A stretch of DNA of 64,000 nt, taken from assembly GCA_017433725.1 (NCBI GenBank), contig JAFRGQ010000052.1, positions 1-64,000 on the forward strand, in the 5' to 3' direction. The position numbers and the translations under genes were made by a program. Positions 15,230 through 38,189 of the stretch are shown here, in pieces. Numbering within the stretch: the first letter of the stretch is position 1; every line of letters begins with the position of its first letter. Source of the stretch: Lachnospiraceae bacterium. Its GTDB lineage: Bacteria > Bacillota > Clostridia > Lachnospirales > Lachnospiraceae. Under the pieces are notes generated by a model, which saw nothing but the letters and a program-made list of their open reading frames with translations, did no database searches and was not told the origin of the DNA.

Positions 15230-15235
15230 TATTAT

Positions 15236-15314
15236 GTTGCTGGGGGCGCATCAGGCTGAGAGTGCATCTGCACGACCCCTATTACTTGATCCGGATAATA
15301 CCGGCGTAAGGAGG
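15236..15314 (+). ncRNA. TPP riboswitch (THI element)
   Basis: Shows the conserved aptamer: GGGGGCGCATCAGGCTGAGA, then GACCC, then ACTTGATCCGGATAATACCG and GCGTAAGGAGG. GGCTGAGA and the GATCCGGATAATACCGGCGTA segment are the two pyrimidine- and pyrophosphate-binding elements. The aptamer ends in AAGGAGG, which is the ribosome site of thiT, with no room for a separate terminator. Thiamine pyrophosphate should therefore block translation by hiding the ribosome site (inference). Confidence 0.96.
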
Positions 15315-15321
15315 CATCTAT

Positions 15322-15963
15322 ATGTTTTTTGTCACGCAAGACGGCGGACTCACCGCCGCCGGCTACACGTTAGTTGCTGTAGCCGTATTCCTTTTACTGA
15401 TTGTCATATCTGTTTTTGCAGGCGGCCGCAAAAAGATTGGAGCAAAGCAGCTCGCTTACTGTTCCATGGCGCTCGCACTCGCAGTTGTGTGCAGTCAGAT
15501 CAAACTCTTCAGGTTGCCGACCGGAGGCTCCATCACCTTATTTTCCATGCTTTTCGTAGTTCTGATCGGCTACTGGTACGGTCCGGTCGTCGGACTTCTG
15601 GCAAGCGTAACTTACGGGCTTCTTCGTTTGATCTTAGGTCCGTACATCGTCTCTCTGCCACAGATGCTTGTGGACTACCCGCTCGCATTCGGTGCTCTCG
15701 GAATTTCCGGTTTCTTCTCTGACAAGAAGAACGGTCTGCTGATCGGATACATTGCCGCAGTCCTCGGCCGCTTCTTTTTCGCTGTCCTTTCGGGCGTCAT
15801 ATTCTTCGGTATGTACGCACCGGAGGGAATGAATCCGCTTCTTTATTCCATCAGCTATAATGGCTTCTATCTCTGTGCGGAAGGTCTGCTTACATTGATT
15901 CTCTTTGCAGTCCCGGCGGTCAGAAAAGCCATGATGAGCGTGAAATTGCAGGCGACGACATAA
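15322..15963 (+). CDS. thiT: Thiamine ECF transporter substrate-binding subunit ThiT
   Basis: ThiT is the S component that binds thiamine and works with a shared ECF module (EcfA, EcfA', EcfT) encoded elsewhere. The 213-residue protein has an extra N-terminal membrane segment (about 13-32) followed by the six-helix S-component core. That core shows the ThiT-like pattern LPQMLVDYPLAFGALGISGFF, GRFFFAVLSGVIFF and YSISYNGFYLCAEGLLT. AAGGAGG precedes the ATG at 7 bp and belongs to the TPP riboswitch, which supports thiamine as substrate. The gene is monocistronic, closed by a terminator at 16020-16067. Confidence 0.93.
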   Translation: MFFVTQDGGLTAAGYTLVAVAVFLLLIVISVFAGGRKKIGAKQLAYCSMALALAVVCSQIKLFRLPTGGSITLFSMLFVVLIGYWYGPVVGLLASVTYGLLRLILGPYIVSLPQMLVDYPLAFGALGISGFFSDKKNGLLIGYIAAVLGRFFFAVLSGVIFFGMYAPEGMNPLLYSISYNGFYLCAEGLLTLILFAVPAVRKAMMSVKLQATT

Positions 15964-20592: not shown

Positions 20593-20648
20593 TGCGTAAC
20601 CAATGCTCCAGTGGAGCATTGTGTAGCTGAGGCTTTTATTCTTCATCT

Positions 20649-20728
20649 CGAGATTGTACTCACGATGAAGCCAGATTTCACTTTGCGCGCGTATCTCATG
20701 ACTCAAATCACGAGTATTGCGCAATGAA
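20649..20728 (+). repeat. Interspersed repeat R2, copy a
   Basis: 80-bp element starting CGAGATTGTACTCACGATGA and ending AAATCACGAGTATTGCGCAA. Related copies lie at 34623-34698 (opposite strand), 43878-43940 and 47030-47106. It contains TTTGCGC and GCGCAA arms that could pair. Confidence 0.75.
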
Positions 20729-20732
20729 GAAT

Positions 20733-33986: not shown

Positions 33987-34604
33987 ATGAAAATAATTTA
34001 TGAGGACAACGATATTATAGTTGTGCACAAGGAAGCAGGCTTTCCTGTTCAGAGTCGCAGCCCTCTCGTGCAGGATCTTGAGAGCATGCTTCTGACAGAT
34101 CTTATGATGAAGAACAAAGACGGACGTAAGCCGAAGCTTCATGTCATTAACCGACTGGATCAGCCGGTCGAAGGGCTTGTACTTTTTGCCAAAAATAAAA
34201 AGACCGCGGCCGATCTTACCCGCCAGCTCACGGAAGGGAAAATCGAAAAGATATACAGGGCAGAAGTTACCGGACAGATACCCAAAGAGGAAGATATTCT
34301 GACAGACTATCTTCTGAAAGACGGACGTACCAATACGAGCAGAGTCGTCGCGCAAGGAACTCCCGGGTCAAAGCAAGCTGTGCTTTCCTATAAAAAGCTG
34401 TCCGACAATGAATTGGAAATACGGCTGATGACCGGTCGGCACCACCAGATCCGAGTCCAGTTCTCGAACGCCGGCATACCGATAAAGGGCGACAGGAAAT
34501 ACGGCAGGCCGGATCCTGATTATCACGGAAGACTAATGCTGACTGCGTGCCGACTTGCGTTCATTCATCCGGTCACCGGAAAGCATATGGACCTTTCGAT
34601 CTGA
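33987..34604 (+). CDS. RluA-family RNA pseudouridine synthase
   Basis: Converts uridine to pseudouridine in rRNA or tRNA; the target base cannot be told. The 205-residue protein is the short form without an S4 domain. It has KIIYEDNDIIVVHKEAGFPV, the catalytic motif HVINRLDQPVEGLVLFAKNK (Asp in RLDQ), and the C-terminal MTGRHHQIRVQFSNAGIPIKGDRKYG block (given in parts: GRHHQIR, GDRKYG). GGGAG lies about 10 bp before the ATG. Single gene, converging on the long non-coding element X2. Confidence 0.93.
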   Translation: MKIIYEDNDIIVVHKEAGFPVQSRSPLVQDLESMLLTDLMMKNKDGRKPKLHVINRLDQPVEGLVLFAKNKKTAADLTRQLTEGKIEKIYRAEVTGQIPKEEDILTDYLLKDGRTNTSRVVAQGTPGSKQAVLSYKKLSDNELEIRLMTGRHHQIRVQFSNAGIPIKGDRKYGRPDPDYHGRLMLTACRLAFIHPVTGKHMDLSI

Positions 34605-34622
34605 AACCAAACGACTAATTTT

Positions 34623-34698
34623 TCATTGCACAATACTCGTGTTTTATTCAAGGGTTACGCTCCAGATGACACTCGTCTTCATCGTGATTGCGATTTCG
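34623..34698 (-). repeat. Interspersed repeat R2, copy c (minus orientation)
   Basis: On the minus strand it contains CACGATGAAG and, at its end, AAAACACGAGTATTGTGCAA, matching copy a at 20649-20728 closely at both ends and loosely in the middle. It lies just past the RluA-type gene. Confidence 0.7.
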
Positions 34699-34724
34699 CG
34701 AGCGGAATCTCAACTGAGCATACG

Positions 34725-34766
34725 AAAAGGGCCGCTACCACGTGTACTTTGCAATAGCGGCCCTTT
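34725..34766 (-). terminator. Stem-loop at the 3' end of X2
   Basis: A perfect 12-bp stem AAAGGGCCGCTA/TAGCGGCCCTTT (34755-34766 with 34726-34737) is followed on the minus strand by T then CGTATG. The plus-strand copy ends CCCTTTAG and may serve the convergent RluA-type gene. Confidence 0.6.
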
Positions 34767-35631
34767 AGAATTCTACATCCAAGGGATTTATCTCCTTAAA
34801 ATATCATTATTCAGTTGTCAAGTTCCATATGATGTTTTTCTTTTGATATTTGATAAACCTTCAAATATTTATATAAAATCTTATTTTTATTCCCAACTCG
34901 TCAAGTGACTTAGAAAATACTATCTTAATTTTTAGGATTCTTCAGTTTCATCGAAATCATCTAACCACGACAACCCCAATTACTTATGATCAGACTCCTT
35001 ATAAATGTCAGTTACCTCTTTAGAACTTTCTTTACAATCCTGAAGTTTCGCTGACCGGCAGTTGTCTCAATATGCAAGCAAGCTAAGATAAACCTGATTT
35101 CCGAGTTTTATCTCCTACGAGATCTTTAATCATTTTTCATTCAATTCATGGAAATGGTCTTCTGGTGTTGGGAACTGCTATGCTCTGCCTTTATCATATT
35201 GAGGAGATACGAGGATCGGCTCGTCTAATGTGTTCATGGGAAACACCCTCCATATGGCTCTGATCTTCCTGTGCTGTTAAAAGAAAAATAAAATCAATTT
35301 TTCATATTAACGTTATTCAGATAAATTGTTCTTCCTATATATGCCATATTCAAATACTTCAAAATGGAAGGTTTCCTTGTTATAAACACGAAACAAATGT
35401 TTAAAAGGTTTTCCTTCGGAGAAGCTTTACTGAAAAAGGTTTTCCCATCCGGCTGATCTATATGGGTTGTCCTTAAACAGCTTCGTCAGGACTTATTTTT
35501 AAAGTGGAAGAAGTTTTCTATCCTGAATACTCTTTTCGGATTTCTCGTCTCCGAAAAATTCTTAAGAAGAATCAGAAATTGTTAACTTGTTAAGTACTAT
35601 CTTTTCTGTAAAAAGTATGTTGTCTTGTGAT
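34725..35631 (-). ncRNA. Candidate long structured non-coding RNA X2 (about 0.9 kb)
   Basis: About 900 bp without any gene, but with a near-consensus promoter at one end and a strong stem-loop at the other. Near the 5' end three hairpins follow one another (minus-strand order): TTTTCGGA/TCCGAAAA (35533-35557), GTCCT/AGGAC (35469-35492) and CCCAT/ATGGG (35444-35466). The only possible peptide I found with a ribosome site (GGAGGG) is 17 codons near 35240-35170. The region resembles X1 in composition, promoter and ending, with little direct identity. Large ornate RNA families such as ROOL or GOLLD are candidates, which I cannot confirm. Confidence 0.65.
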
Positions 35632-35637
35632 GTAAGT

Positions 35638-35666
35638 ATATTAACAAATCATTCTAGAATTGTCAA
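35638..35666 (-). promoter_or_regulatory. Sigma-A promoter of X2
   Basis: TTGACA (35661-35666), 17-bp spacer, TAATAT (35638-35643) on the minus strand: one mismatch from consensus, with AT-rich sequence upstream. Start expected near 35631. No gene lies downstream on this strand within 900 bp. Confidence 0.85.
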
Positions 35667-35900: not shown

Positions 35901-38189
35901 TCAGTTGGTTTTGTGGCTGCGATAATAGTTAATCAGACACCCGTCCTCAATTATTTCTCTCTCATCGTCGGTCAAATCACCGAGCTTCATGGAGAATTTC
36001 ACCAGGCCCTCCGCCTTTACAGCGTAGGCTTCAATCACTTCCGCCTTCTCCCGGACTTCATTCTGGATATTCGGGAGGAAGATATAATCGCCGTTTGCAA
36101 ACGGCAGTTCACCCTCATCGATAAGCAGCGGCAGCATGCCCCAATTTATCAGATTGGAGCGATAGCGCTTGGTGGCATACTCATTTGCTATATTGGCCCA
36201 TCCGCCAAGTACCTTCTGACAGGACGCCGCCTGCTCGCGGGCCGAACCATCGCCCGGCTTGACCGCAAAAATAGTCGATCCTATGCCGGTATTGTCATAC
36301 TCGGCATCCGGGAAAACTTCCCGTACCCGGCTCATCACCCCGGCCGTCTCCTCATATGCAGCTTTTACGACCGTCTCCAGAGCCTCCTCACTCTCTCCAA
36401 GCGATTCCTCACGAGCGATTTCCGCCTTCTGGACCTCTTTCGCACGGCCGACATACGCCGGATCCTTTCTGGATAGTGCAAAACTAGCCAGCTTGAGCGG
36501 ATTCGAGCGGTAAGAAGATGTTTCACCGGAGGGGATCAGCTCGTCCGTTGTCGTTACCGGATCATGAATTTCGCTGACAACTTTAAGAAGAAGGTTGTCC
36601 GTAAGCGCCGGCATGGACGGCCAATCCTTAATGTTCGGGCCGAACTGAAGCTCAGCGGACGGATCCGGCTCACCCTTGCTGTTGAACACGCGGTTCCTGT
36701 AAATCCTGTCATCGAAGAAGTACTTCGGCTTCGAATATTCACCGGTAAAGTACTCGGCTGAAGTCAGGATTCCCTTATTGGCAGCCGTAGCTGCGATTGA
36801 TCTTGCATCCATCAGTGCCACGGAAGAAATCTGTCCTTCCTGGACCTTCGAACCCTCGCGGTTCGGGAAATTGCGTGTCGAATGACGGATCGAGAACGCG
36901 TTATTGGCAGGTGTATCGCCGGCGCCGAAGCAAGGTCCGCAGAATGCAGGCTTAATAACCGCACCTGTCTCGAGCAGATCTGCAAATACTCCGTTTTTCA
37001 CAAGTTCCATGTACACAGGCATGGAAGCCGGATAAATATTCAGAGAGAACCGGTCGTCACCGATGCTCTTATTACGCAGTATGTCGGCTGCATCACAGAT
37101 ATTTTCAAATCCGCCGCCCGCGCAGCCTGCGATGATACCCTGGTCGACCATTATTTTCCCATCTACCAGCTTGCTCATAAGGTCGACATGAACCTTGTCG
37201 CCGAAAGATATCTTCGCGCGTTCCTCGGTCTCATGAAGTATGTCGGCCGGATTAGCAAGAACTTCATCGATAGTGTATGTGCAGCTCGGATGATACGGCA
37301 TGGCGATCATCGGCTTGATTTCGGAAAGATCGATCTCCATCAGTGAATCATAGTACGCTACGGAAGCCGGTGCAAGAGCCTTGAAATCCTGTTCTCTCTT
37401 ATGCGTCGCGTAATATTCACGTGTCAGATCATCTGTCTGCCAGATTGAAGAAAGACATGTCGTCTCAGTGGTCATGACGTCCACGCCGATTCGGTAGTCC
37501 ATGGAAAGATTTGCAACGCCGGGTCCAACAAATTCCATAACTTTATTTTTGACAAAACCATTCTTGAATACTGCGCCAATGATAGCAAGCGCGATATCCT
37601 GCGGTCCGACACCCGGCCGCGGCTCGCCGGTCAGATAAATTGCGACGATTTCCGGCATCTTGATATCATATGTGCGTGAGAGGAGCTGCTTGACAAGTTC
37701 CGGACCGCCTTCGCCCATAGCCATGGTTCCGAGCGCACCGTAACGAGTGTGGCTGTCGCTGCCGAGAATCATTTTTCCGCCGCCGGAAAGCATTTCACGG
37801 GCATACTGGTGGATAACGGCCTGCATAGGCGGAACATATACTCCGCCGTATTTCTGTGCAGCTGTAAGTCCGAAGACATGATCGTCTTCATTGATTGTAC
37901 CGCCGACCGCACAGAGTGAATTATGACAGTTCGTCAGAACATACGGAATCGGGAATTTCTCAAGCCCCGATGCGCGGGCTGTCTGGATAATACCAACGTA
38001 AGTGATGTCATGGGAAGTCAAGGCATCAAATCTGATCTGAAGCTGTTCCATGTTGCCGGAGATGTTGTGCTGCTTGAGAATACCGTATGCGATAGTTCCT
38101 TCTTTCGCAGCCTGAAGATTTCCGCTGTAGGATTCACTGATTTCCGTACCATGGAACAGATACACCCCGCCTTCATGCAATTTGATCAT
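35901..38189 (-). CDS. Aconitase-family hydratase (YbhJ-like)
   Basis: Iron-sulfur hydro-lyase family protein of 762 residues. The three cluster cysteines of aconitases are present: Cys356 (IIAGCAGGG) and Cys417/Cys420 ([10 protein letters not shown]). [20 protein letters not shown] (143-162) is the substrate-loop histidine region, and NREGSKVQ with a GNREGN-like Arg lies at about 444. Overall length and the [20 protein letters not shown] block resemble E. coli YbhJ more than citrate-cycle AcnA or AcnB. The substrate is therefore open. GAGGAGG precedes the ATG. Single gene with its own terminator. Confidence 0.85.

Follow-up and report, generated by a model that had tools for sequence, protein, structure and literature searches.

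Does a stretch of about 0.9 kb that carries a strong promoter but no evident gene encode an RNA, and if so, of what kind? The stretch, termed X2, lies on the minus strand of the window, by which we mean the whole 64,000 nucleotides of DNA analysed. It had originally been predicted to be a large structured RNA on account of a TTGACA-17-TAATAT promoter, three consecutive hairpins near the 5' end, a 12-bp terminator-like stem at the 3' end and the lack of a usable frame. All X2 features described below are located on the minus strand.

Promoter, terminator and extent of X2

Sequence scanning and homologue comparison placed the promoter, TTGACA-N17-TAATAT with an extended -10 TG, at 35638..35666. 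At the other end, an exact 12-bp stem (AAAGGGCCGCTA/TAGCGGCCCTTT) followed by a T run forms a terminator-like hairpin (34725..34766), and alignments inspected by eye contained a conserved TTGAATA-like stretch ahead of it (34768..34785). Both elements of the original prediction were thereby recovered. Together they delimit a putative transcript of ~0.9 kb (34725..35631), the start of which was set ~7 nt past the -10 region. According to the ORF list, the X2 region is free of minus-strand ORFs that reach 40 aa. The fold of X2 was more stable than that of shuffled sequences (z -3.79, 20 shuffles).

Counted by itself, the promoter stands out only slightly (10 promoter-like sites in the X2 region against 4.4 expected, sd 2.0), and the case for X2 was therefore made by comparison. 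Homologous loci were collected and, after removal of identical cores from 98 alignment entries, 75 were retained. Upstream of the core, all 75 carried TTGACA-N17-TAnnnT, compared to 6 of 222 control segments, and the extended TG was present in 67 of 75 loci and in none of the 222 controls. The distance from promoter to core ranged from 46 to 454 nt. Terminator-like sites were not in excess in the X2 region (2 versus 2.0 expected); the scan misses the X2 terminator itself, the loop of which is too long. A loose script found terminator-like hairpins 3' of the core in 56/75 loci, some of them plainly within the RNA, as is the case in the window. From these signals X2 looks like an independently transcribed structured RNA gene, its transcription being predicted.

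The pseudoknot core and flanking hairpins

Covariation indicates that the core of X2 is a three-helix pseudoknot in which P1 crosses P2. The 5' strand of P1, CTCAATATG (35195..35203), pairs with CATATTGAG (35066..35074), and the 5' strand of P2, GGCAG (35185..35189), with CTGCC (35057..35061). The strands follow each other in the interleaved order P1a, P2a, P1b, P2b. P3 is nested and joins ATTTCC (35150..35155) to GGAAAT (35097..35102), its register in the window being read from the window's own sequence. Pairing was quantified in 60 sequences, a chosen subset of the loci from which repeat fetches of the same genomes and some other loci (e.g. L076, L082, L083 and L109) had been left out. When these were aligned to the covariance model R2, 93.3% of the cells of P1, P2 and P3 jointly were paired, compared to 34-46% with the partner strands slid. 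Changes on both sides were observed in 17 of the 20 core pairs, and cells with double changes numbered 153 versus 46.5 in shuffles, both counts being uncorrected for phylogeny. Individually, P1 was paired in 98.9% of cells (both-side changes in 6/9 pairs), P2 in 94.7% (5/5 pairs) and P3 in 83.6% (6/6 pairs). The aligning model contained P1 and P3 but not P2, and the covariation of P2 is therefore not a product of fitting. Two further candidates in the core, a GGGAAC/GTTCCC helix and a hairpin CCGATCTACGG, were dropped since by eye several members break them.

The core is flanked by two hairpins which, judged by comparison, covary in their stems and are conserved in their loops. H1 (35534..35556) has a 7-bp stem and a 9-nt loop, GACGAGAAA. 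The loop motif [GA]ACGAGAAA was present in 37 of the 75 non-redundant loci (exact loop word in 33) and was not found in the other 38; 86.1% of stem cells were paired versus 47.8% in shuffles, again without correction for phylogeny. H2 (35022..35041) carries the loop GTAAAGAA, and the word TGT[AG]AAGAAA was found in 44/75 loci. Its stem was paired in 85.0% of cells versus 55.5% in shuffles (phylogeny uncorrected), counted over the 43 aligned sequences that remained when L088 and L105 were removed from 45 motif matches. The reversed loop words of H1 and H2 occurred in 0/75 loci, and the loop words themselves occurred farther downstream in none of the 72 loci holding such a stretch. L176 and L179 gave no model match (72 of 74 sources matched) and are outside the later counts. 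Towards the 3' end, a motif scan of the 75 loci defined an element, E3, of the form TTTCTAA-hairpin-GAG(C/T)nGG(G/A)A (34890..34917). It was present in 26 loci, where complementary stems of 2-6 bp show 10 different starts, and was not found in 49. Its TTTCT might conceivably form a kissing contact with the H1 loop.

With P1, P2, P3, H1 and H2 all covarying beyond their controls (phylogeny uncorrected), the homologue alignment bears out the large structured RNA that had been predicted; the covariation is strong and extends over many genera. Of the three consecutive hairpins, H1 is backed by comparison, and the other two belong to the fold of a single sequence.

The mini-ORF and its reading frame

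The core also holds a short frame. A Shine-Dalgarno-like GGAGG (35246..35253), conserved ahead of the start codon, precedes a mini-ORF of 19 codons (35178..35237) that encodes MNTLDEPILVSPQYDKGRA followed by a stop, recognized by its conserved start and its frame pattern. A start codon was present in 74 of the 75 loci (ATG in 36, TTG in 32, GTG in 6; context CCxNTG); only in L135 was no such start found. GGAGG stood before the start in 65/74 loci, and some Shine-Dalgarno-like word in 72/74. Inspection of the alignments by eye suggested that CC and GG on either side of the start codon could often pair into a short hairpin. Translation thus quite probably starts at the mini-ORF, to judge from this conserved start signal. 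Hence the original description of X2 as lacking a usable frame holds for ORFs of 40 aa and more and fails for this one, and the RNA would be large and structured as predicted but not purely non-coding, its short ORF being probably translated.

In the window and in most members the P1 and P2 5' strands lie within the codons of the mini-ORF, and we compared the frame of the start codon with P1. Among the 47 loci of other genera, 38 had the frame of P1 and continued through it and 4 had this frame and an early stop; the 5 out-of-frame members all stopped within 2-3 codons, so that not one out-of-frame readthrough was seen. Frame and early stop were thus associated (Fisher p 8e-5, without correction for relatedness). 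In-frame members of these other genera start 24, 27, 30, 33 or 36 nt ahead of P1; over all in-frame members, those of the genus included, 39 nt occurs as well. Within the genus (27 loci), no association was observed (p 1.0): 18 members were in frame and read through, 2 were in frame with an early stop, 6 were out of frame and read through and 1 was out of frame with an early stop. A stop ahead of P1 occurred in 9/47 other-genus and 3/27 genus members, and passage of the ribosome through P1 is therefore not universal.

The encoded peptide is poorly conserved, and in 10/74 loci the mini-ORF comprises only 2-5 codons. Members which we take to be Blautia-like share a common peptide of ~30 aa with QYVSGMA...RRISLNHR. 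Peptides of 30-33 aa from other members matched no NCBIfam family (5 tested) and no Pfam family (3 tested). A conserved C-terminal peptide was considered and rejected by eye, as the nucleotide motif AGTTCCCG is kept in differing reading frames. We conclude from this pattern that the act of translation, and not the peptide, would be what is kept. Conservation looks to be at the RNA level, with constraint limited to the start signal and, in the other genera, to the frame of the mini-ORF. A conserved protein-coding pattern in homologues, named beforehand as an outcome that would speak against an RNA, was consequently not found in the intended sense, because what is conserved appears to be RNA.

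Distribution, gene neighbourhood and relation to known RNAs

A nucleotide search of 99 related genomes returned one long copy, in the sister genome G021 (94% identity over 1123 aligned nt; 1 difference in 197 nt of the core), and, in several further genomes, partial matches clustering about a single segment. Just past the X2 terminator lies an interspersed repeat of ~85 bp (34618-34701, and again at 20646-20732), which matches more than 20 additional places in the genome in full or in part and has copies in the sister species; it is unrelated to X2 and accounts for some of the nucleotide-search matches. An alignment of 17 sequences, window included, resolved the promoter, the 5' hairpin, a core of ~200 nt, the 3' element and, in some, the terminator as conserved blocks. 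An exact core pattern was found in 15 records of a named genome collection (11 Lachnospiraceae and 4 Clostridiales or Clostridia).

Two covariance models were used, R1 built from 19 sequences and R2 from 26 and rebuilt with other genera. Counting the genome of the window itself, R1 matched 30/42 genus genomes and 46/397 family genomes at E <= 0.01, and R2 matched 74/397 family genomes (61/334 genera) at E <= 0.001. Each of these had one R2 match except G161, the sole genome with two at this threshold; its second core (G161:C7:23818-24006) scored E 5.3e-10. In the order sample 10/295 genomes matched at E <= 0.01, of which nine, counting the own genome, belong to the family and one, a marginal match, lies outside it (E 0.0038, 67 nt), and in the class sample 3/341, every one of the same family and the own genome included; both samples contain family members, so that the genomes outside are fewer than these totals. 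So far, to judge from these searches, the RNA appears in one bacterial family, Lachnospiraceae.

No R2 match at E <= 0.001 was obtained in 323 of the 397 family genomes. Twelve of the 42 genus genomes, four of them at least 90% complete, also remained without a match under laxer filters, which added 3 weak matches (E 0.024-0.065) among 23 other match-less family genomes (3/35 of all genomes given to this search). X2 may be dispensable or may have diverged past the reach of the model, and assembly gaps may lie behind some of the absences. In viral contigs, three exact-pattern scans gave one match at a contig edge, the one with the initial core pattern giving none. The match (L207:28-48, viral-collection contig IMGVR_UViG_2585427817_000006) is a Blautia-like core motif at the very edge, perhaps the host flank of a predicted provirus.

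In the window, X2 is preceded by an aconitase gene (35901..38189, minus strand; Pfam Aconitase, E 2.7e-90) and faces a convergent gene which we read as an RluA-type pseudouridine synthase (33987..34604, plus strand; Pfam PseudoU_synth_2, E 3.8e-30). The neighbour context was compared in 38 other-genus loci, out of 74 matching family genomes. Eighteen had an aconitase gene upstream. BLAST placed a same-strand RluA-like gene downstream in 6, as the immediate neighbour in 5; at least 6 had a downstream gene with the start DKYEYRVKTEQM, which we interpret as encoding a TPR protein. In 15 genus loci inspected by eye, the gene directly upstream was aconitase in 7 and PucR-like in 4, and at least 8 had a same-strand RluA-like gene following X2. 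In the window and in G021 this gene is convergent, with the X2 core intact; its flip relative to those genus loci is likely a local inversion that spared the core. Thus, a conserved same-strand downstream gene, as expected for a cis-regulatory leader or riboswitch, was not seen in these loci, where downstream genes vary. We take the aconitase linkage to reflect old synteny and X2 to be probably an independent RNA, because its downstream neighbour changes from genus to genus and, in the window, converges on it.

A scan with the 4227 Rfam families gave no match at gathering score on X2 or on the scanned homologue loci. ROOL, GOLLD, OLE, HEARO and raiA, all of which belong to these families and had been put forward for checking, were absent from the matches at gathering and also at E-values up to 5, 2 and 0.5. 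Sub-threshold matches (SR1, mir, plastid, snoRNA, Clostridiales-1) were scattered and different at each locus. On X2 a weak SR1 match covers the 3' end (34724-34895; 22 bits, gathering 45) and does not reach the core. A Clostridiales-1 match in genome G019 (L011:2118-2278; 41.2 bits, gathering 48) lies a little upstream of the X2 promoter on the opposite strand. The only match at gathering in the window is a TPP riboswitch (15232-15329). A divergent 6S RNA was rejected, since a separate 6S match exists in 5/5 genomes, above cut-off in 3. A divergent tmRNA was likewise rejected: a separate tmRNA scored above cut-off in 5/5 genomes, and the X2 places were not among the matches.

X2 nevertheless shares features with described RNAs. 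A tmRNA holds a short ORF inside a pseudoknotted RNA, as X2 does, but unlike tmRNA, X2 has a Shine-Dalgarno sequence. RNAIII is a dual-function RNA. So is SR1/SR1P, a structured RNA which, according to PMC8501984, also holds a short translated frame. X2 resembles such RNAs in the short frame within a structured RNA, its translation being predicted; it differs from the SR1 type in having ORF codons that themselves serve as pseudoknot strands and a peptide that lacks conservation. Cis-regulators containing a uORF, such as the uORF motifs of PMC8632094, combine a short ORF with an overlapping conserved structure and possible ribosome-dependent switching, whereas X2 has no constant downstream gene and, in the window, a terminator-like hairpin of its own. 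Nearest in kind are OLE, ROOL and GOLLD, characterized in PMC12286853 as RNAs of hundreds of nucleotides with a complex fold and a function unknown or partly known, the ROOL fold holding multiple pseudoknots. X2 is like them in its large size and complex fold; what sets it apart is the mini-ORF, with its ribosome-binding site, inside the RNA. ROOL and GOLLD adjoin tRNAs, whereas the 64-kb window contains no tRNA genes and X2 has chromosomal neighbours such as aconitase. Among the literature matches listed no description of an X2 RNA was present, and the RNA is apparently undescribed so far; subscription papers and supplements were outside the reach of this search and may hold a prior mention.

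A proposed translation-gated RNA and its alternatives

We consider it on balance likely that X2 represents a new family of structured RNAs, independent and acting in trans, that combine promoter, pseudoknot, hairpins and mini-ORF and would be gated by translation. Ribosomes would load on the X2 RNA at the mini-ORF and, while there, would hold P1 and P2 open, because P1a and P2a lie in the ORF and P1b and P2b more than 100 nt downstream. When initiation or elongation becomes limiting, or the ribosome is gone, the pseudoknot would close and the RNA adopt its active shape. The fold, and binding through the H1 and H2 loops, would thereby be coupled to translation, with gating exposing or hiding the two loops or the pseudoknot. 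A bolder reading, which we rate as less likely than not, is that the pseudoknot built from the RNA's own mini-ORF codons is the active form of a stand-alone, trans-acting RNA that ribosome loading and release would switch, and that this RNA would serve many Lachnospiraceae as a translation-state sensor acting via its two loops.

The ribosome-binding site and start codon might instead only dock the 30S subunit, or be structural, with no meaningful ORF behind them. Such a role would account for the conservation of GGAGG and NTG alongside a peptide that is not conserved, for the members that stop after 2-5 codons, for the unconstrained frame within the genus and for the CC/GG hairpin that by eye is often possible at the start codon. 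It would leave unexplained why the start-P1 spacing of in-frame other-genus members shifts by multiples of three and why all 5 out-of-frame members there stop early. We regard it as unlikely, yet as the most serious of the alternatives. Far less room is left for an mRNA encoding a functional micropeptide and carrying a long structured 3' region: the start signal is good and the Blautia-like members do share a peptide of ~30 aa, but the peptide diverges strongly, shrinking to 2-5 codons in 10/74 loci, and the RNA helices persist all the same. This makes a micropeptide mRNA very improbable.

A leader peptide followed by a terminator also looks like attenuation, and X2 could in principle be a cis-acting leader or attenuator of the downstream gene, which in many genomes is the RluA-type synthase (seen by eye on the same strand in 8 or more of the 15 genus loci, and by BLAST in 6 of the 38 other-genus loci). 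This idea is weakened because the downstream genes are variable: in the majority of the 38 other-genus loci different genes lie there, such as the TPR-like protein in at least 6, and in both the window and G021 the RluA-like gene runs convergently although the X2 core is intact. We rate a cis-acting role as improbable. A divergent ROOL, GOLLD, OLE, raiA or HEARO RNA would fit in size and ornate look, but none of the five families appeared in the Rfam scans of X2 and its homologue loci, and three exact-pattern scans of viral contigs gave a single match, at a contig edge. The helices, conserved with compensatory changes, speak against a decayed gene. Either identity is scarcely credible.

In the human gut and the rumen, Lachnospiraceae rank with the dominant bacteria. 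Under the preferred reading of X2 as an independent, translation-gated RNA, the locus gives them a conserved RNA gene, ~0.4-0.9 kb in length and led by a near-consensus promoter, which lies outside Rfam. It yields a ready covariance model and a testable pseudoknot. Whether translating the tiny ORF affects how the RNA folds can likewise be tested; such a design is unmatched by the large RNAs compared here. Should the bolder reading be true, X2 would open a new category of regulatory RNA, that of a sensor of translation state at work in many Lachnospiraceae.
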